Shown one piece after another: positions 3,009 through 43,887 of a stretch of DNA of 64,000 bases; positions within the stretch are counted from its first letter, which is position 1, and each line of letters starts with the position of its first letter. The stretch covers positions 1,387,001-1,451,000 of the forward strand of contig NZ_CP075175.1 in the NCBI RefSeq assembly GCF_021223605.1. Direction: 5' to 3'. The position numbers and the translations under genes were made by a program. The DNA is from Paenibacillus sp. 481. GTDB lineage: Bacteria > Bacillota > Bacilli > Paenibacillales > Paenibacillaceae. Below the pieces are notes generated by a model that was not told where the DNA came from, searched no databases, and worked only from the letters and a program-made list of their open reading frames with translations.

Positions 3009-4889
3009 TTACCTCTTAAATAAAGAACGCATCTGCTGTTTATCAAGCTTTCCAACGGATGTCTTCGGCATTTCATTCACAAATACGTAGCGCTTCGGAA
3101 CTTTGTACTTGCCAATCTGTAAGGAACAATGTTCGACTAAAAGGTCTGGTGTCAGCGCCGAATCTCTGGTCGCGACAATGACGGCAGCTACAACTTCCCC
3201 CCACTTATTATCGTTTAAGCCGATAACAGCAGCTTCCAGCACATGTGGATGCTGGAGCAGCAGTCGCTCGACTTCAAGCGGATACACATTTTCACCGCCC
3301 GTAATGATTAACTCTTTTTGTCGGCCAACAATGTAATAGTATCCCTCTTCATCACGCAGCGCCAAATCCCCTGTCATAAACCAGCCATTGCGAACGGACT
3401 TGTTCGTCTCTATAGCATTATTCCAGTAATAACTGAACAGATGACCGCCGCGTAAAGCAAGCTCTCCAACTTGATATGCCTCCTGTACATCACCTACGCT
3501 ATCTCCCTCGCCACTTATAATTCTAGCTTCGTTAAACAGCATAGGAACACCTATTGAGCCCCTTTTTTGTTGGGCGATCACCGGATCAATCACAAAGTTA
3601 TTTGGCCCTGATTCGGTTGCCCCATAGCCTTCTTTAAAGGATAGCTGCCTCTGCGCAAAGGCTTCATACACCGAGGCTGGGCATGGCGCACCGCCAGATA
3701 AAAATGTACGCATCTTAGCATACGATGCGGCCGCAAATGCGTTAGACGACACGAGCATATGATACATCGTCGGAACCATAAGCACGATGGTCGTACCCAT
3801 GCGCTCTAGCAGCTCGGCTGTACGCTCCGCCTCAAAAGAGCGCTCTAGTACAACCGTTCCACCGCTGACGAGAATCGGCAAGGTCAGCGCATTTAATCCG
3901 CCCGTATGGAACATGGGCAGCACCGTTACCGTCACATCCTGCTCCGATAACTGCCAGCTCACAATTGTATTCGTCGCATTGCACAAGACAGCGCGATGAC
4001 TGAGCACGACTCCCTTCGCTTTGCCTGTCGTGCCACCTGTGTAAATCATGATCCATGGTTGCTCAGCATGCTCATCGTTTGCAGCCGCTTCATTGTCATT
4101 GCGTTCAAGGCCAGCTGTCCTAGCGGCCTCAACGGCTTCTGATTCCTTCGTTGCTACAGCACTATCAACTGCCTCCGCTCGCTTCGTAGCCGTAGTTCTC
4201 TCAGCTACCCCTGCTCGCGTAGTTCCCTTACTTCGCTCAATTGCTTCTGCCCGCTGCGTTGCTTCAGTTCTCTCAGCCCCCCCTGCTCGCGTAGTTCCCT
4301 CACTTCGCTCAATTGCTTCTGCCCGTTTAGCCCCTTCAGCACTCTCAATTACCCACTCTCGCTTAGTTCCCTCAGCTGCATCTCCCGACGTATCTAAGTC
4401 AGCTAAGTCAGGAACAGCCGTAAGACAGAGACCTGACGGCAAGACCAACGTCTCAACCAACTGAACAATTTGCTCCATTCCACACGCTTCAACGAGCAGT
4501 AAGCTAGGTGTGCAATCGACCACGATTTCATTTAACTCCTGTGCATTTAGTCTCCAATTAAGCGGTACAAAGATCGCTCCAATCTGTCCACAAGCGAACA
4601 GCACCGCTAACACTGAAAAATGATTAGGCGCCAGCATCGCTACCCGATCACCTCGTTGAACGCCTTGTTCAACGAGCCAATGCGCAAGTTGAGACGCCCG
4701 TTGTCCTAACTCACCATACGACCAGCTCTCGCCAGTAGCACCGTCCACGACGGCAGTTCGATGTTGCGATATGCGGCAGCGGTGAGAAAACCATGTCGAA
4801 CCTAACGAATGAACGCTCAACCGAGTGCCGTGTGCTCTTCCGTGATCCTCTGCGCAATTAGACTGATTCGACGACAACGGCAATGCCAT
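3009..4889 (-). CDS. Class I acyl-CoA synthetase / AMP-dependent ligase with a repetitive insert
   Basis: An adenylate-forming enzyme that would activate a carboxylic acid with ATP and load it onto CoA. The ATP-binding loop reads [13 protein letters not shown], followed by the GYGATE adenine-binding motif, the TGD segment and a C-terminal KTSVGK-type catalytic lysine. An upstream in-frame GTG at 4904 would add five residues, but the ribosome site GGGAGGAGG lies inside those codons, so ATG 4889 (626 aa) is preferred. The family is usually about 490-550 aa. The excess is an Ala/Glu/Arg/Thr-rich insert of about 110 residues (roughly 167-277) just before the ATP loop. The start overlaps the 3' end of the thiolase gene by 32 bp, so the two are probably translationally coupled. 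MenE-like and fatty-acyl ligases are both possible; no other men gene is nearby, so a fatty or aryl acid substrate is the safer guess. Confidence 0.85.
4130..4396 (-). repeat. In-frame 72-bp repeats within the acyl-CoA ligase gene
   Basis: Two near-identical 72-bp units (4202-4273 and 4274-4345) are flanked by decayed partial units. They encode 24-residue repeats containing AEAIERS and GTTRAG. Unit length is a multiple of three, so gain or loss of units keeps the frame. Confidence 0.85.
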
Positions 4890-24505: not shown

Positions 24506-25498
24506 TTAACGCGGCATTACAAAGCCCATGCGACGCTTCACTTCATCAAGCGTTTGTTGCGCAGCCGCTTGGGCACGCTCCGCGCCACTTTTCAATACAT
24601 CGTGCAGTTCGCCAGATTTGCGAACCTCGTGATAACGCGCTTGCAGCGGTTCAATGAATGATGCTACTTGCTCTGCCAAGTCCTTTTTAAATGGCCCGTA
24701 CATTTGGCCATCATATTTAGCTTCGATTTCAGCAATACTTAAGTCGGAAGTATGTGCATAAATGCTCATCAAGTTGCTAATTTCCGGCTTATTAATTGGA
24801 TCGTACTTAACGACAGCTTCCATATCCGTCTTCGCACGGCTAATCTTTTTGCGGATAACGGCTGGATCATCAAGTAAAGCGATCAAGCTGCCGGCAACCG
24901 CGCTGCTCTTGCTCATTTTTTTGGATGCATCGTCCAACGACATAATGCGCGCGCCTACTTCTGGAATGTATGGCTGCGGAACCGTGAAGAAGTCCCCGAA
25001 GCGATGATTGAAACGATTCGCCAAGTCGCGTGTCAATTCCAAGTGCTGCTTCTGGTCATCGCCAACCGGAATAAGGTCTGCGTTATAAATTAAAATATCA
25101 GCTGCCATGAGTGCCGGATATACGAACAAGCCTGCGCCAACCGAATCTTTGCCCTCTGACTTATCTTTAAACTGCGTCATGCGCTCCAACTCGCCCATAT
25201 AACTGATCGTCGTCATCAACCAGCCGAGTTCTGCGTGCTGTGGTACATGCGACTGCATAAAGATAGCTGCCTTGTTCGGATCAATACCTGCGGCAAGATA
25301 CAGGGCAGCAACTTGCTCTGACTGCTCATGCAAAGCTGCCGGCTCTTGCGCCACGGTTATAGCATGAAGGTCGACGATCATAAAAAAGCATTCATGGTCG
25401 TGCTGCAACTTCACAAAGTTCTGCATCGCTCCAATGTAATTACCAATCGTAAGCTGTCCACTTGGTTGAATACCAGACAATACTCTTTTCATGTTCAT
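24506..25498 (-). CDS. trpS: Tryptophanyl-tRNA synthetase
   Basis: A 330-aa class Ic aminoacyl-tRNA synthetase that charges tRNA-Trp with tryptophan. The HIGH-equivalent is TIGN at 17-20 within SGIQPSGQLTIGNY. KMSKS is at 194-198, and DDQKQHLELTRDLA is the usual conserved helix. ATG 25498 or ATG 25492 could start it; AAGGAG is 4 or 10 bases away respectively. It is expressed from a T-box leader with a Trp specifier codon, so uncharged tRNA-Trp should raise transcription. An unusual heptamer array lies between the T-box terminator and the ribosome site. Confidence 0.97.
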   Translation of the reverse strand: MNMKRVLSGIQPSGQLTIGNYIGAMQNFVKLQHDHECFFMIVDLHAITVAQEPAALHEQSEQVAALYLAAGIDPNKAAIFMQSHVPQHAELGWLMTTISYMGELERMTQFKDKSEGKDSVGAGLFVYPALMAADILIYNADLIPVGDDQKQHLELTRDLANRFNHRFGDFFTVPQPYIPEVGARIMSLDDASKKMSKSSAVAGSLIALLDDPAVIRKKISRAKTDMEAVVKYDPINKPEISNLMSIYAHTSDLSIAEIEAKYDGQMYGPFKKDLAEQVASFIEPLQARYHEVRKSGELHDVLKSGAERAQAAAQQTLDEVKRRMGFVMPR

Positions 25499-25534: not shown

Positions 25535-25716
25535 GCGTTGTGCGCTGTGCGTTGTGCGCTGTGCGTTGTGCGCTGTGCGTTGTGCGCTGTGCGTTGTGCG
25601 CTGTGCGTTGTGCGCTGTGCGTTGTGCGCTGTGCGTTGTGCGCTGTGCGTTGTGCGCTGTGCGTTGTGCGCTGTGCGTTGTGCGCTGTGCGTTGTGCGCT
25701 GTGCGCTGTGCGCTGT
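25535..25716 (-). repeat. 26 tandem heptamers in the trpS leader
   Basis: An uninterrupted run of 26 seven-base units. On the plus strand GCGTTGT and GCGCTGT alternate 12 times (a 14-bp period, 25535-25702), then two more GCGCTGT follow. It lies downstream of the T-box terminator and about 37 bp upstream of the trpS start, so it should be present in the read-through trpS mRNA as an A/C/G repeat without U. Frames across it are open only because of the repeat. Confidence 0.95.
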
Positions 25717-25778
25717 GCATCGAGCACACAACCTGCACATGCAACGCCAGCAAAGCCAAAACAACGTAAAAACAACGC

Positions 25779-26245: not shown

Positions 26246-27220
26246 ATGTATCAGGTAACAAAAGGACAATGGAACGGCTACGAAACGATTATTTTGCATA
26301 GCGAAAAATTAGAGGCTACAGTGCTACCCGGCCTAGGCAATAATGTTATTCGCCTCTGGGATAAGATTGCGGAGCGTGAAGTGCTCCGCACGCCAGCAGA
26401 GCAAGATCTTGATTACTATATGACGAAGCCATATCACTTCGGAATTCCGATGCTAATGCCTCCTGGACGTATTCGTCGTGGACGTTTTACGTATGCAGGT
26501 GTGCAGTATCAATTCGACCAAAATACAGCGAATGACAACCACATCCACGGTCTGCACCGCACGCAAGCTTGGACAGTAACAGCAACCGAAACGACAGATA
26601 CACATAGTGCCGTTACTTGTGTGTTCAACACAGCTGACGACGCTGATTGGATGCGTCAATACCCAACCCCACTACAACTCACGATGACGATGACCTTATC
26701 CAACGGTACGCTAACACAAGCTTTAACAGTGACCAATAAAGGCGAGCAGCCTGCGCCATTCGGCTTCGGCACGCACACTTGGCTGCAAATTGATGGCGAA
26801 CCTGAGCGCTGGACCGTTAAGGTACCTGTAACAGGTATTTACGAGCTAGACGAAGAGCTAATTACGACTGGAACAACGGCACCTCTGGGCCAATATGAGC
26901 AGCTCATTAACGGTATGAACTTGAAAGGCACCGATTTTGATACGGTGTTTAGCAAAGGAGAGCACAAACCAGAAGCTTTATTAACGCGTGATGACGGCTA
27001 CACGATCCGCTATTCAGGCAACGAGCCGTACTTTAAACACTGGGTGCTGTATACGCGCGGTGTCGCAGAAGAAATCATTTGTATCGAGCCGTACACTTGG
27101 CTGACTGACGCACCAAATTTACCATTTGACGATGAAACGACCGGTCTTATCGATTTGAAACCTAACGAGCCGGTTACGCTTGTGTTGGACTTAAGCGTTC
27201 AACATGCTGAACAGAACTAA
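26246..27220 (+). CDS. Aldose 1-epimerase family protein
   Basis: A 324-aa protein of the galactose mutarotase fold, interconverting alpha and beta anomers of sugars. Conserved blocks are the PGLGNNVIRLWD strand, FGIPMLMPPGRIRRGRF (substrate arginine region), NHIHGLHR with the active-site His, FGFGTHTW with the second His, and a C-terminal Glu in EIICIEPYTW. ATG 26246 lies nine bases behind AAGGAG. It is divergent from trpS and monocistronic, with its own terminator. The sugar specificity is not evident. Confidence 0.88.
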   Translation: MYQVTKGQWNGYETIILHSEKLEATVLPGLGNNVIRLWDKIAEREVLRTPAEQDLDYYMTKPYHFGIPMLMPPGRIRRGRFTYAGVQYQFDQNTANDNHIHGLHRTQAWTVTATETTDTHSAVTCVFNTADDADWMRQYPTPLQLTMTMTLSNGTLTQALTVTNKGEQPAPFGFGTHTWLQIDGEPERWTVKVPVTGIYELDEELITTGTTAPLGQYEQLINGMNLKGTDFDTVFSKGEHKPEALLTRDDGYTIRYSGNEPYFKHWVLYTRGVAEEIICIEPYTWLTDAPNLPFDDETTGLIDLKPNEPVTLVLDLSVQHAEQN

Positions 27221-36291: not shown

Positions 36292-37320
36292 TTAGTGCGT
36301 GGTGCGAGCGTCTTTTGTATCTTTCGCTTCTTGCGTAGGTCTTGTCTCTTGAGTAGCCTTAGCTTCTTGCGCAGGTCTTGTCTGCTGAGCAGCCTTAGCT
36401 TCTTGCGTAGGTCTTGCCTGTTGAGCAACCTTCGCTTCTTGCGTAGGTCTTGTCTCTTGAGCAACCTTAGCTTCTTGCGCAGGTCTTGCCTGTTGAGCAG
36501 CCTTCGCTTCTTGCGTAGGTCTTGTCTCTTGAGTAGCCTTAGCTTCTTGCGTAGGTCTTGCCTGATGAGCAGTCTTAGCTTCTTGCGTAGGTCTTGCCTG
36601 ATGAGCAACCTTCGCTTCTTGCGCAGGTCTTGAGCCTTGAGCACTCTTCGCTTCCGAGGCTGCTTTCGTTTCTTGAGCTGCCTTCGAATCTCGCTGTTCT
36701 CTGCCTTCACGGTTATCTTTCACGTCTTTAGCCTCACGTGAATCGCGGTCCTTGCCTGTACCACGTCCTTCACGAGCTTGTTCGGAACGCGAAGCTCCTT
36801 GGTAGCCGGATTTACTGTGCGGCTTCTGACGAGTACGCTGCCGATTAGGCTTGCGCTCACTTGGCACAGCAGCTGTCGTAGCCTCTGGCGCGTTCGCCTT
36901 CGGTTGAAGCGAGATACCTTGCGGTTGAGGTGCAGCTTGATCAGCAGTTCCGTGTTCAGCAGTGCTGCCTTCTTCTAAAGCAGCAGCTCCTTCTTGCTCT
37001 CCGCTCCAATCGCTCTCCTCAGTTGGCGGACGCCAACGCGCGTCTTTGTTGCTCACTTTTTCCAAAATAAAATAAGCGCAACCAAAATTGCAATACTCAT
37101 TCACATAATCCATCACACTCGAAAATGAGGATTCTTTCGTTGACTTTGGGTGATTGTCCTTAAAAAAGCCCTTTAGCCGCAATTGGCTATAGCCCCAATC
37201 TCCCAATATGTAGTCATACCGCTCCAGCACCTCGCTGTAGCGATCGCGAAACGCCTCAGGGTTCCACGCCGTTCTATGTTCGTGTACAAGATCGTACATT
37301 TTTCCGCCGATATGAATCAC
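36292..37320 (-). CDS. yutD: YutD-family protein with a long repetitive tail
   Basis: The first 90 residues are a complete YutD (DUF1027) domain: YDLVHEHRTAWN, RYDYILGDWGYSQLRLKGFF and EYCNFGCAYFILEK. B. subtilis YutD is about 100 aa; here the protein runs to 342 aa through a basic, Gln/Ala/Lys/Arg-rich tail. Residues 231-338 are nine 12-residue repeats of the type RPTQEAKAAQQA. GTG 37320 is the start, behind AAGGAGG. It lies next to lipA, the same order as the yutB(lipA)-yutD neighbourhood of Bacillus. The tail looks disordered and cationic and could bind RNA or the cell surface; that is a guess. Confidence 0.87.
   Translation of the reverse strand: MIHIGGKMYDLVHEHRTAWNPEAFRDRYSEVLERYDYILGDWGYSQLRLKGFFKDNHPKSTKESSFSSVMDYVNEYCNFGCAYFILEKVSNKDARWRPPTEESDWSGEQEGAAALEEGSTAEHGTADQAAPQPQGISLQPKANAPEATTAAVPSERKPNRQRTRQKPHSKSGYQGASRSEQAREGRGTGKDRDSREAKDVKDNREGREQRDSKAAQETKAASEAKSAQGSRPAQEAKVAHQARPTQEAKTAHQARPTQEAKATQETRPTQEAKAAQQARPAQEAKVAQETRPTQEAKVAQQARPTQEAKAAQQTRPAQEAKATQETRPTQEAKDTKDARTTH
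36307..36630 (-). repeat. Nine in-frame 36-bp tandem repeats in the yutD-like gene
   Basis: Contiguous 36-bp units encode RP(T/A)QEAK plus five variable residues. There are no spacers, so this is not a CRISPR array. Open frames on other strands here are by-products of the repeat. Confidence 0.93.
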
Positions 37321-41270: not shown

Positions 41271-42428
41271 ATGCAACTAGAATTATACGCGAGTGAATAT
41301 AAAGTGACAGCGGAAGGCATAACGGTAGCGCTACTGCCCAAGGAATTCGCTCTTTTTCAATTTCTCTACCGTAACAGCGATCGTACATTCAGCCGGGAAC
41401 AGCTGCTGGATAACGTATGGCCGTTGGAATATCCGGTTGAACGGACGGTGGATGATCATATATACAGGCTGCGTAAGAAGTTGCGTCCTTTTATCGATCT
41501 GGAGATCAAATCGGTCCGTGGATTAGGGTACCGCCTGACCGTGTTGCGTCCAAAGACTGCTGAGCAAGCGAACCCTACTACCCAAGATCCAGAGTTGTAT
41601 GACGCAATGCGGGATGTATTCGGAAAATACCATCAATACGGCCAAGGTCGTTCGATGTTGACCCTCGCACGCCAACAGGATGTGCTTGGCTATGAGCTAG
41701 ATCCGTTTTATTCCGTCTATGTCCATTTTGTACAAGGCGATCTGGAATGGTTGCTCCATACCGACGAGGTTCCACTGAGCGAACGCATCTATTGGCTACT
41801 GTTGTTCTATCTTTTTTCGGGCGACCCGAAGCAGAAGCTTGTATTTTGTGAGCAAATACTTGCGAAGAAACGGTTGTCCCCTGACCGGCAACTAGAAATG
41901 GAGATTCTCAACATCCTTGATCTGTATACCATGGCAGGCAAGCCTGATGCAGCGCTGGAGCGGTTGATGATGAGTCATTCGGTGATTACCGATCCCATTT
42001 ATGAGAATTTCAGACCACAAACGGCGATCACAGAAATGTTTGTAAACCTCGTTGTAGGAGCCGAAGAGAATGAGCTGAGAAAAATGGCGGAGACGATTGA
42101 AGTTGACATTTTGCCTAGCAAGCCTTTTCTGCGTGAAGTTGGGAGTTACAAGGTGGTCAAGGGGCTTTGGATGTTACAGCGTCAAGAATGGCGTGAAGCG
42201 GAGAAGTTATTGGACGAGGGGCTGCACATTTTGGACAAGTCCGGCTTTGTTCCGATACGGCTGTTTGCCCTAATCCGAATTCATTATTACTGTGGCCTGT
42301 TTCCGCCAAAAAAAGAGTTGCAGCAAAAATACATCGATAAGTATGCGGAAGTACAGGAGCAGATCGGTTTCAATAAGCTGTCAGGGCCGCTGGAAGCTAC
42401 GCTACAAAATGTACTAAACCGCTTCTAA
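41271..42428 (+). CDS. OmpR/SARP-type winged-helix regulator with a helical-repeat domain
   Basis: A 385-aa one-component regulator. Residues 1-92 form a Trans_reg_C winged helix: LLPKEFALFQFLYRN (helix 1), SREQLLDNVWP, TVDDHIYRLRKKLRPF (recognition helix) and SVRGLGYRLTV (wing). There is no phosphoacceptor receiver domain. Residues about 105-385 are all-helical and TPR/BTAD-like, perhaps for ligand binding or dimerisation. An extended -10 (TGGTATACT at 41222-41230) lies upstream. The following gene is an MFS transporter, and a seven-copy 11-bp repeat, the geometry used by this DNA-binding domain, lies between them. Control of the transporter is a strong inference. Confidence 0.82.
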   Translation: MQLELYASEYKVTAEGITVALLPKEFALFQFLYRNSDRTFSREQLLDNVWPLEYPVERTVDDHIYRLRKKLRPFIDLEIKSVRGLGYRLTVLRPKTAEQANPTTQDPELYDAMRDVFGKYHQYGQGRSMLTLARQQDVLGYELDPFYSVYVHFVQGDLEWLLHTDEVPLSERIYWLLLFYLFSGDPKQKLVFCEQILAKKRLSPDRQLEMEILNILDLYTMAGKPDAALERLMMSHSVITDPIYENFRPQTAITEMFVNLVVGAEENELRKMAETIEVDILPSKPFLREVGSYKVVKGLWMLQRQEWREAEKLLDEGLHILDKSGFVPIRLFALIRIHYYCGLFPPKKELQQKYIDKYAEVQEQIGFNKLSGPLEATLQNVLNRF

Positions 42429-42445
42429 CCTACTTTGGATGGTGG

Positions 42446-42522
42446 TCTGATCATTCTCTGATAATGTTCTGATGGCGCTGTGATCATACTTTAATGATGC
42501 TCTGATAATCCTCTGACATTTC
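42446..42522 (+). promoter_or_regulatory. Seven tandem 11-bp operator-like repeats upstream of the MFS gene
   Basis: Seven consecutive 11-bp units start at 42446, 42457, 42468, 42479, 42490, 42501 and 42512, each resembling TCTGATNATNN. The best are TCTGATAATGT and TCTGATAATCC. OmpR/SARP winged helices bind direct repeats at 11-bp period. The last heptamer (42512-42518) ends 8 bp before TACAGT (42527-42532), a possible -10 element. Confidence 0.75.
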
Positions 42523-42535
42523 TCCGCTACAGTAG

Positions 42536-42554
42536 GTTCATACCCTTTATGAAC
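42536..42554 (+). repeat. Inverted repeat before the MFS start
   Basis: Exact arms GTTCATA and TATGAAC around CCCTT, 25 bp upstream of the MFS start and inside the presumed leader. It could be a second operator or a leader hairpin. Confidence 0.5.
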
Positions 42555-42579
42555 TTATTGTGATTCGGAGGAATACCTA

Positions 42580-43887
42580 ATGACAACTACTCAACAAGCA
42601 GGAACAAGCCTGCTTCGTAACAAAGTATTTAGGCGTGTATATAGCGCTTATGCTTCAGCAACCTTCGGAGACTGGTTCGACATGTTGGCTATTCAGGTGC
42701 TCGTAGGTTATCGTTGGCATGCCAGCCCGCTCATGCTGGCCCTAATCCCGATCGCCATCGCACTGCCTAATATTTTGCTCGGTTCCGTTGCAGGTGTCGC
42801 TGCCGATCGGCTGAACAAGCTGAAGCTGATGCGAATGTGCGATCTGCTCACGGCAGTCTTAACGTTGCTCGTGTTGCTCGCTCCAAATATGTGGTGGCTG
42901 CTTTCCTTGCTTATGTTGCGTTCGGCCATCTCAACGTTAAACGTGCCCGCTCAGCAGTCGCTAACACGTAGCATCGTAAGAGAGGATCAACTGCTGCAAG
43001 CTACTTCACTCAACGGGATCGTGAATCAAGGTTCCAAGATCGCTGGGCCTTTATTGGGCGGCGTCGCTTTATCCTTCCTGTCGCCACAATGGTGCATTTT
43101 GATATGCGCCTGCTTCAGGGTCGGTGCTTATATCCTCTTGCTCACCGTCAAGGACGCAGAGGTGATAAACATCAAGAAAGAAGTTCAGGGGGAATCCCTC
43201 TCCGTATCTGCAACAGAGCAACGAGTTCCGCTACGTACGATGTGGAAAGAAGGATGGAGCTTTATTTTCCATAGCAGACTGCTGTTCAACACGATGCTAT
43301 TCGGGATAACTGGGGCACTCTCTATCCAGATGATCGATTTTCAGTTCACCAGCCTCTTTCGGACCATTGCTCCCCAGCAAGAATCTTTGCTCGGTTGGTT
43401 AGTTGCAGCATCAGGTGTAGGTGCCATAACGATCATTACGGCGATGAACAAAATGAACCGTGAATCGGGTTATGGTTGGAAATTTGGTAGTGGCTACGTG
43501 CTGATAGGCATATCTGTGGCAGGACTGGGATTACTCGAGCCTGGCGTATCGGTTCTTCCTGTATTGATACTAGGGTTCGTAATGGGCTTGGGCAACGGCA
43601 TATTTATGATTACTTTCAGCTATTGCCTGCAAAAAGAGACACCTCCACATATGACAGGCCGTGTATTCGGGATTCAGAGCACCATCCTAGGAACGATTAT
43701 GATTGGAGCACCCCTGCTTGGCGGAACCTTGGTGCAAGCTATCGGCCCGATGCAAACATTTTTAATGATCGGAATTTTAGTTGCCGTGCTAGGTTTGTTG
43801 GGCATTTTGTTCGGCAATCTGTTGTGGCCTACGTCCAAAGTAGTGAACAGAGACCGCGCTTTGGAGCATTCGATGGGTGGAGCATAG
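42580..43887 (+). CDS. MFS efflux transporter, DHA3-like
   Basis: A 435-aa permease with about 12 helices. NKVFRRVYSAYASATFGDWF at the start, GVAADRLNKLKLM in the motif A loop, and GPLLGGVALSFLSPQW plus HMTGRVFGIQ in the second half are typical of the DHA3 (MefA/tetracycline-V-like) drug-efflux branch. ATG 42580 follows CGGAGGA. It lies after the winged-helix regulator with the 11-bp repeat array between, so export of a compound sensed by that regulator is plausible. A terminator follows at 43967. Confidence 0.85.
   Translation: MTTTQQAGTSLLRNKVFRRVYSAYASATFGDWFDMLAIQVLVGYRWHASPLMLALIPIAIALPNILLGSVAGVAADRLNKLKLMRMCDLLTAVLTLLVLLAPNMWWLLSLLMLRSAISTLNVPAQQSLTRSIVREDQLLQATSLNGIVNQGSKIAGPLLGGVALSFLSPQWCILICACFRVGAYILLLTVKDAEVINIKKEVQGESLSVSATEQRVPLRTMWKEGWSFIFHSRLLFNTMLFGITGALSIQMIDFQFTSLFRTIAPQQESLLGWLVAASGVGAITIITAMNKMNRESGYGWKFGSGYVLIGISVAGLGLLEPGVSVLPVLILGFVMGLGNGIFMITFSYCLQKETPPHMTGRVFGIQSTILGTIMIGAPLLGGTLVQAIGPMQTFLMIGILVAVLGLLGILFGNLLWPTSKVVNRDRALEHSMGGA

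Follow-up and report, generated by a model that had tools for sequence, protein, structure and literature searches.

The window analysed here, a 64,000-nucleotide stretch of the Paenibacillus sp. 481 genome, contains a run of 11-bp direct repeats lying between a regulator gene and an exporter gene, which raises the question of what these repeats do and which protein reads them. A sequence-only reading had taken them for an operator like those of SARP and OmpR-type proteins, placed before an efflux gene. Our comparison of related loci indicates that the array is very probably the operator of the upstream-encoded regulator and would form, together with the -10 element, an activator-dependent promoter of the exporter. 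The features of the locus are listed below.

41271-42428, plus strand: regulator gene, 385 aa, with an N-terminal PhoB/OmpR-type winged helix (residues ~1-91) and a C-terminal all-helical TPR superhelix (~102-383)
42424-42522, plus strand: direct-repeat array, with clear units at 42446-42522 and degraded units at 42424-42445
42424, plus strand: unit 9 (degraded), TCTAACCTACT, 5 of 6 matches to TCTGAY, regulator TAA stop inside
42426-42428, plus strand: regulator stop codon TAA, within unit 9, in the phase where relatives carry TC[TGA]T
42435, plus strand: unit 8 (degraded), TTGGATGGTGG, 4 of 6
42446, plus strand: unit 7, TCTGATCATTC, 6 of 6
42457, plus strand: unit 6, TCTGATAATGT, 6 of 6
42468, plus strand: unit 5, TCTGATGGCGC, 6 of 6
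42479, plus strand: unit 4, TGTGATCATAC, 5 of 6, imperfect
42490, plus strand: unit 3, TTTAATGATGC, 4 of 6, imperfect
42501, plus strand: unit 2, TCTGATAATCC, 6 of 6
42512, plus strand: unit 1 (promoter-proximal), TCTGACATTTC, 6 of 6
42501-42522, plus strand: promoter-proximal pair TCTGATAATCC TCTGACATTTC, the part kept in relatives, putative core activator site
42519-42527, plus strand: gap of 9 nt between the last TCTGACA core and the -10
42528-42533, plus strand: -10 element TACAGT, read from sequence, with no -35 at spacers 16-18
42567-42572, plus strand: ribosome binding site GGAGGA, read from sequence
42580-43887, plus strand: exporter gene, 435 aa, MFS, H+ antiporter/macrolide-efflux-like branch (Pfam, NCBIfam)

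Organisation of the repeat array

Read directly from the sequence, the array is composed of nine units in one register, seven clear and two degraded, and five of the nine carry a perfect TCTGAY. The sequence-only reading had described seven contiguous 11-mers; the unbroken register is borne out, whereas units 3 and 4 depart from the consensus, and units 8 and 9 had been missed. Its end at 42532 also falls one base short of the end of the -10. TRF calls the repeat at 42446-42516 with period 11 and 6.5 copies. The best sum of seven units spaced 11 bp apart reaches 39 of 42 in the array; the same measure gives 26 for the opposite strand of the window and 24-26 for 20 mononucleotide shuffles.

The gene downstream of the array is predicted to encode an MFS exporter, as had been proposed. 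The protein matches the Pfam families MFS_1 (6.1e-35) and MFS_3 (3.5e-19), and the NCBIfam models TIGR00900 (1.6e-42) and Mef(C) (7e-17), the latter two both under the curated cut-off.

Other repeats are present elsewhere in the window. Thirteen copies of the 14-bp unit GCGTTGTGCGCTGT, 99% identical by TRF, occupy 25535-25718 between the minus-strand gene 24506-25498, presumably tryptophanyl-tRNA synthetase-like, and the gene 26246-27220, which we take to be sugar-epimerase-like. The minus-strand gene 36292-37320 encodes a protein with a long tail of ~12-residue repeats of the RPTQEAKAAQ type, with 36-bp DNA repeats at 36326-36632, and imperfect 36/72-bp tandem repeats lie at 4177-4374.

Conservation of the regulator, site and exporter

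A protein search of 98 genomes found 23 regulator homologues matching beyond the winged helix (the window's own included, one partial), and a scan of named genomes added 24 further homologues from Paenibacillus, Fontibacillus, Saccharibacillus, Cohnella, Brevibacillus, Halobacillus, Jeotgalibacillus, Salipaludibacillus, Alkalihalophilus and Bacillus. These 47 homologues correspond to 43 loci distinct at the site, leaving out L086 (winged helix only) and L053, L057, L060 and L070 (duplicate site sequences); L020 (partial) was excluded from alignment A1, and L069 (frame past the stop) and L086 from A2 and A3. Although the loci were picked by protein and not by motif, 42 of the 43 carry TCTGAY-N5-TCTGAYA at the 3' end of the regulator gene, the pair being scored as present at 11 or more of 13 positions. 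The sole locus lacking the pair (L073, Brevibacillus panacihumi) also has no exporter beside the regulator, and a search of this set for orthologous loci that keep both genes and have lost the repeat, which would have spoken against an operator, yielded none.

The association extends over larger genome sets. The pattern CTGAY-N5-TCTGAYA-N9-TANNNT, allowing no mismatch, has 73 matches across the order, in 71 of 198 genomes and nearly always one per genome, compared with six matches of the reversed-pattern control. Sixty-eight of the 73 lie at the regulator, comprising 57 of 61 newly fetched loci (same strand, regulator end at or near the site) and 11 from the protein search. Among the 62 genomes covered by both searches, the site is found in 16 of 16 with the regulator and in 1 of 46 without it; at the exceptional locus (L220 in G022), neither regulator nor exporter is nearby. 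At the class level, 71 of 398 genomes match, against four for the control. The regulator lies within 400 nt of the site in 27 of the 50 new class loci, and the other 23 are divided among five sites before M29 peptidases, two before an M32/M3-like protein, three before an MFS gene and 13 unlinked ones, which appear to be chance matches or sites of another kind.

Of the 39 genomes of the Brevibacillus-like family, 32 match the C-terminal profile of the regulator. Allowing up to one mismatch, 28 of the 32 have the site at the regulator; in G541 it is ~665 nt away, and in G254 (L276/L299), G470 (L277) and G346 (L292) it is present only before a remote MFS gene. Since the site still precedes an MFS gene where the exporter is away from the regulator, it appears to track the target gene. 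No exact site occurs in the seven regulator-less genomes of this family.

These distributions bear on whether a different OmpR/PhoB-type response regulator reads the site, with the neighbouring regulator as a bystander. Each genome encodes many winged-helix response regulators (19 scored matches are listed in most), and the site resembles a pho box. However, site and regulator come and go together, as the counts of 16 of 16 against 1 of 46 and the seven regulator-less Brevibacillus-family genomes show, whereas generic response regulators are present in both genome groups. A bystander role is therefore very improbable.

Within the window's genus, the exact site occurs in one of 19 genomes, together with one variant (L014 in G016), so the module is accessory there. 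Unit-pair scans of L001-L023 and L053-L076 detected no second site upstream of the regulator, only distant stray weak pairs (L022, L061), and we accordingly dropped an autoregulatory reading. At L188 (G502), the regulator frame has no winged helix (profile match at 112-375 only) and is still followed by the site, representing either a deletion of the DNA-binding domain or an assembly error. At L240/L253 (G572), the gene order differs, being site, exporter, regulator. The module is widespread across Bacilli and apparently undescribed; we found no description of it in the open-access literature.

Architecture of the putative promoter

In the proximal unit, seven of the eight columns C-T-C-T-G-A-Y-A are conserved in 42 of 42 loci and the first T in 41, while the gap and the outer flank are variable. 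The last TCTGACA core of the window ends at 42518 and TACAGT begins at 42528, leaving 9 nt between them; the spacing of 8 bp given previously is obtained only if the core is taken as 8 bp. TACAGT itself is a weak -10, matching the consensus at four of six positions. All 42 loci have TANNNT at offset 9, 41 by script and the window as the 42nd, where the script took the outermost pair and the innermost pair was used instead; offsets 0-8 and 10-13 give three matches altogether in these loci. A -35 element was not found at spacers 16-18 in the 42 loci, the mean match being 0.7-1.6 of 6 against a background of 1.44. Conservation at 42 of 43 loci, the constant gap and the missing -35 thus lend comparative support to an operator of the SARP/OmpR kind before the efflux gene, to which we infer that the regulator binds.

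The same geometry bears on the sign of regulation. Local regulator-exporter pairs are often repressor pairs, and a long array would cover the promoter well, so that the regulator could coat the array and the -10 region and be released by the exported compound. Against such a repressor, the promoters of 42 loci have no -35 and would have little drive once derepressed, and the repeats end upstream of the -10, overlapping it at no locus. Moreover, tandem binding of OmpR-type proteins at such a distance is the activation geometry of PhoB and SARPs, as far as the excerpts of PMC10936776 and PMC4415409 describe it. We regard repression as improbable. Activation is favoured from geometry, by analogy, and a bound repressor could also fix the spacing.

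A perfect 7-bp inverted repeat, GTTCATA-CCCTT-TATGAAC, is located at 42536-42554, directly 3' of the -10. The inverted repeat, and the overlap of the array with the regulator stop codon, would fit repeats that function at the RNA level or form the 3' end of the regulator message, as a terminator or a leader hairpin. However, no terminator was called at the array. The inverted repeat lacks conservation, since 5 of 42 loci reach P<=0.05 and the folding z averages -0.1, and direct repeats with the period of one helical turn, at a constant distance from the -10, suggest binding at the DNA level. A leader hairpin was rejected on these folding values, and we consider a function in RNA extremely improbable.

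Structure of the regulator

As the sequence-only reading had it, the upstream gene encodes a winged-helix regulator devoid of a receiver domain: the sole Pfam match is Trans_reg_C (9.3e-21, residues 19-89), and no Response_reg match was obtained in the window regulator or 24 homologues. The AlphaFold2 model has a pLDDT of 91.2 (94.0 for the C-terminal part alone). It matches OmpR-type domains across residues 1-93, and residues 93-385 are predicted to form a TPR superhelix. In the recognition helix RTVDDHIYRLRKK, residues R58, T59, V60, D61, D62, H63, Y65, R66 and R68 are invariant among 24 homologues with identities down to 27%. The invariant residues are matched by an invariant operator, which supports the view that this regulator reads the array.

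The C-terminal part is less readily assigned. TPR profiles of Pfam match up to 8 of the 24 homologues at E<=1, the TPR_MalT profile matching five, and the BTAD profile (presumably PF03704) is absent from the 23 Pfam families matched by the 24 homologues at this threshold. The top structural neighbours are TPR subunits of the APC/C (Z 16.0, rmsd 3.7, 250 residues), followed by Rap with pheromone (Z 14.8, rmsd 4.3-4.4, 250-252 residues), AimR (Z 13.3, rmsd 5.1, 225 residues), MalT domain III (Z 12.8, rmsd 4.6, 249 residues), PlcR (Z 12.2, rmsd 4.8, 191 residues) and NprR (Z 11.3, rmsd 6.2, 245 residues). Helical repeats reach high Z by chance, and the APC/C subunits score as high as the peptide receptors, so the likeness to peptide receptors is a lead only. 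Foldseek gave no significant match for the C-terminal part (best E 0.065), and no solved relative of this domain was found by sequence similarity. Among the small ORFs listed adjoining the regulator, none was recognised as a propeptide gene from the ORF listing alone.

Possible additional targets of the site

In the Brevibacillus-like family, a further site, exact or with one mismatch, precedes an M29 aminopeptidase gene in 20 of the 32 regulator-carrying genomes (16 found first and four more later) and in none of the seven without it.

Before M29 genes in 20 Brevibacillus-like genomes: site loci L181, L183, L185, L189, L225, L284-L291, L294, L297, L298 and L300-L303

Five of these peptidases were identified by Pfam (E 7.8e-47 to 1.9e-51) and the others were recognised by similar N-termini. 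No M29 site was seen in the remaining 12 of the 32 genomes. The seven regulator-less genomes encode nine M29 paralogues with no site (best 3-6 mismatches); those compared with the query share no more than 62% identity with it and may represent different paralogues. For this reason, and given the 12 genomes, the peptidase link was rejected as proof of peptide sensing. At L168, L176 and L293, the site precedes a protein of 490-500 aa; the two that were scanned show weak M32 or M3 peptidase similarity under the cut-offs, and the protein is possibly an undescribed peptidase-like family.

In the genome that contains the window, the array is the sole occurrence of the full pattern with zero mismatches, and the single match with one mismatch lies on the opposite strand, within an open frame of 820 codons. 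Allowing up to two mismatches gives 33 matches; 19 loci were examined (L034-L052), of which L039 is the array itself. The other 18 comprise 13 within a large open frame and five outside, and no peptidase or exporter was recognised behind these five. A regulon in this genome was rejected on the single exact site and on the near-matches, of which the 18 examined gave no recognised target. Likewise, no peptidase-linked site was found among the exact and the examined mismatch matches.

Variation in unit number

Across 120 distinct exact sites preceded by the regulator, the number of units is two in 99, three in 17, four in two, five in one and nine in one, the window, so the array does exceed the usual two or three copies, as had been noted. 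The 27 sites counted as having no regulator in compiling this set are an upper bound, as loci fetched later were left out of the regulator scan. The regulator stop codon lies within unit -2 as TC[TGA]T in 55 of the 120 sites and in phase 2 in 65. In 20 it directly follows unit -1, and the operator there encodes the final residues of the regulator.

The nearest relatives, L002-L004 (76, 76 and 66% identical), have three units each. The distance from the stop codon to the exporter ATG is 151 bp in the window and 85 bp in L002, a difference of 66 bp or exactly six units. The array may thus have grown in register from an ancestor with three units; alternatively, units may have been lost in the relatives.

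Such an exact difference would also arise if only the two proximal units matter and the rest are a neutral slippage expansion, now decaying, which is compatible with the operator reading for the core. Relatives presumably work with two units, the outer units 8 and 9 are badly degraded and units 3 and 4 imperfect, and, as far as the excerpt of PMC5930380 goes, a fourth heptamer brought no substantial gain with Streptomyces PimR. On the other side, the hexamers of the nine units keep 48 of 54 consensus positions against 25 of 45 majority positions in the spacers, as counted by eye and with the hexamer itself chosen as the conserved part, and the 11-bp register is kept throughout. Higher retention in the hexamer is as expected under selection on contacted bases. 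We consider neutral expansion a serious possibility, though less likely than not; the array may be decaying, with only two functional units.

Comparison with known regulators

Among the closest known counterparts are the SARPs of Streptomyces (AfsR, ActII-4, DnrI, PimR). They share with the regulator an N-terminal OmpR-type winged helix devoid of a receiver and a helical C-terminal domain, and in both systems tandem 11-bp direct repeats take the place of the -35 near the -10 (42 of 43 loci here). In the excerpt of PMC10936776, the repeats of SARP promoters lie 8 bp from the -10, compared with 9 nt in the window, and two AfsR protomers bind next to each other on a pair of 11-bp repeats (-40 to -19) overlapping the -35, contacting the first 8 bp of each unit and leaving about 3 free. 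The ~8 contacted base pairs per unit correspond to the eight conserved columns of the TCTGAY site. There are also differences. SARPs belong to actinomycetes and biosynthesis clusters, whereas the present unit belongs to Bacilli and would serve an exporter and, in places, peptidases; its regulator has ~290 aa of C-terminal TPRs with no BTAD match, and its site has the core TCTGAYA, a gap of 9 nt and up to nine units. Given the missing BTAD match, we do not file the regulator as a SARP, and it is not an actinobacterial cluster regulator. No SARP chain is among the structural matches listed for the C-terminal part, which does not thereby exclude a BTA-like fold.

The DNA-binding domain has the same fold as in PhoB/PhoP, and PhoB (1gxp) is 40% identical across 93 residues, with the recognition helix RTVDVHIRRLRKA in place of RTVDDHIYRLRKK. 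In E. coli, according to the excerpt of PMC4415409, two 11-nt repeats with the motif CTGTCAT bind PhoB, which contacts sigma70. This motif is one base from the CTGAYAT of the present site, which likewise has two 11-nt units. In contrast to PhoB/PhoP, the regulator has no receiver domain, and is thus not a response regulator, and no kinase; it would use a TPR sensor and act locally on one or a few targets rather than on a regulon. By analogy, it would work like both SARP and PhoB-type activators. The solved Mycobacterium tuberculosis PhoP complex, as far as the entry 9ji5 was available, contains six PhoP molecules, suggesting that long tandem assemblies are possible.

In its C-terminal half, the modelled regulator resembles the RRNPP receptors (Rap, PlcR, NprR, AimR), which also possess a TPR superhelix (fold Z 10-15, with the APC/C scoring as high). 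It differs from them in carrying a Trans_reg_C winged helix instead of HTH_3 (PF01381), in having no sequence similarity to solved members and in the absence of a recognised adjoining propeptide gene. MalT is alike in the TPR_MalT profile and in domain III, as described above. MalT possesses an NTPase and a LuxR-type HTH, neither of which is present in the window protein by Pfam.

Proposed mechanism and implications

The activator-promoter reading follows from an anatomy like that of AfsR and PhoB, with eight conserved columns per unit, no -35 and a fixed -10. The regulator would sense a cytoplasmic ligand through its TPR domain and, once ligand-bound, associate with the TCTGAY repeats in head-to-tail order, with a single winged helix for each 11-bp turn. 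At the promoter-proximal units, two protomers would occupy the position of the missing -35 and keep sigma/RNA polymerase at the -10, in the manner of PhoB and AfsR. Production of the exporter would follow, and the exporter would remove the compound. In the window, the seven extra units may recruit further protomers beside the core pair, raising occupancy at low regulator levels or steepening the switch.

A peptide or peptide-like compound is the most plausible ligand, judging from the fold likeness of the modelled C-terminal part and the peptidase targets in Brevibacillus-like genomes; a site shared by an exporter and by cytoplasmic peptidases would suit such a ligand. More speculatively, the regulators may represent an unrecognised class of one-component peptide sensors in Bacilli, combining a PhoB-type winged helix with an RRNPP-like TPR receptor, binding peptides (imported or endogenous) or peptide antibiotics, and switching on an exporter and cytoplasmic peptidases from TCTGAY arrays, with the repeat number as an evolutionary threshold dial. 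We hold this wider proposal to be possible, though rather doubtful as a whole. The RRNPP_Detector survey, in the excerpt of PMC10075063, flagged DNA-binding receptors by PF01381 and equivalent HTH models, a criterion under which receptors with a winged helix would have gone unmarked as transcription factors.

Our analysis highlights a conserved regulator-operator pair, present in Paenibacillaceae, Brevibacillus-like and other Bacilli genomes, whose unusually clean consensus (C)TCTGAYA-N9-TANNNT locates target genes across genomes. Similar promoters in which the number of units ranges naturally from two to nine provide a ready test of tandem sites for an OmpR-type activator. If the C-terminal domain binds peptides, these regulators would constitute a new receptor class.
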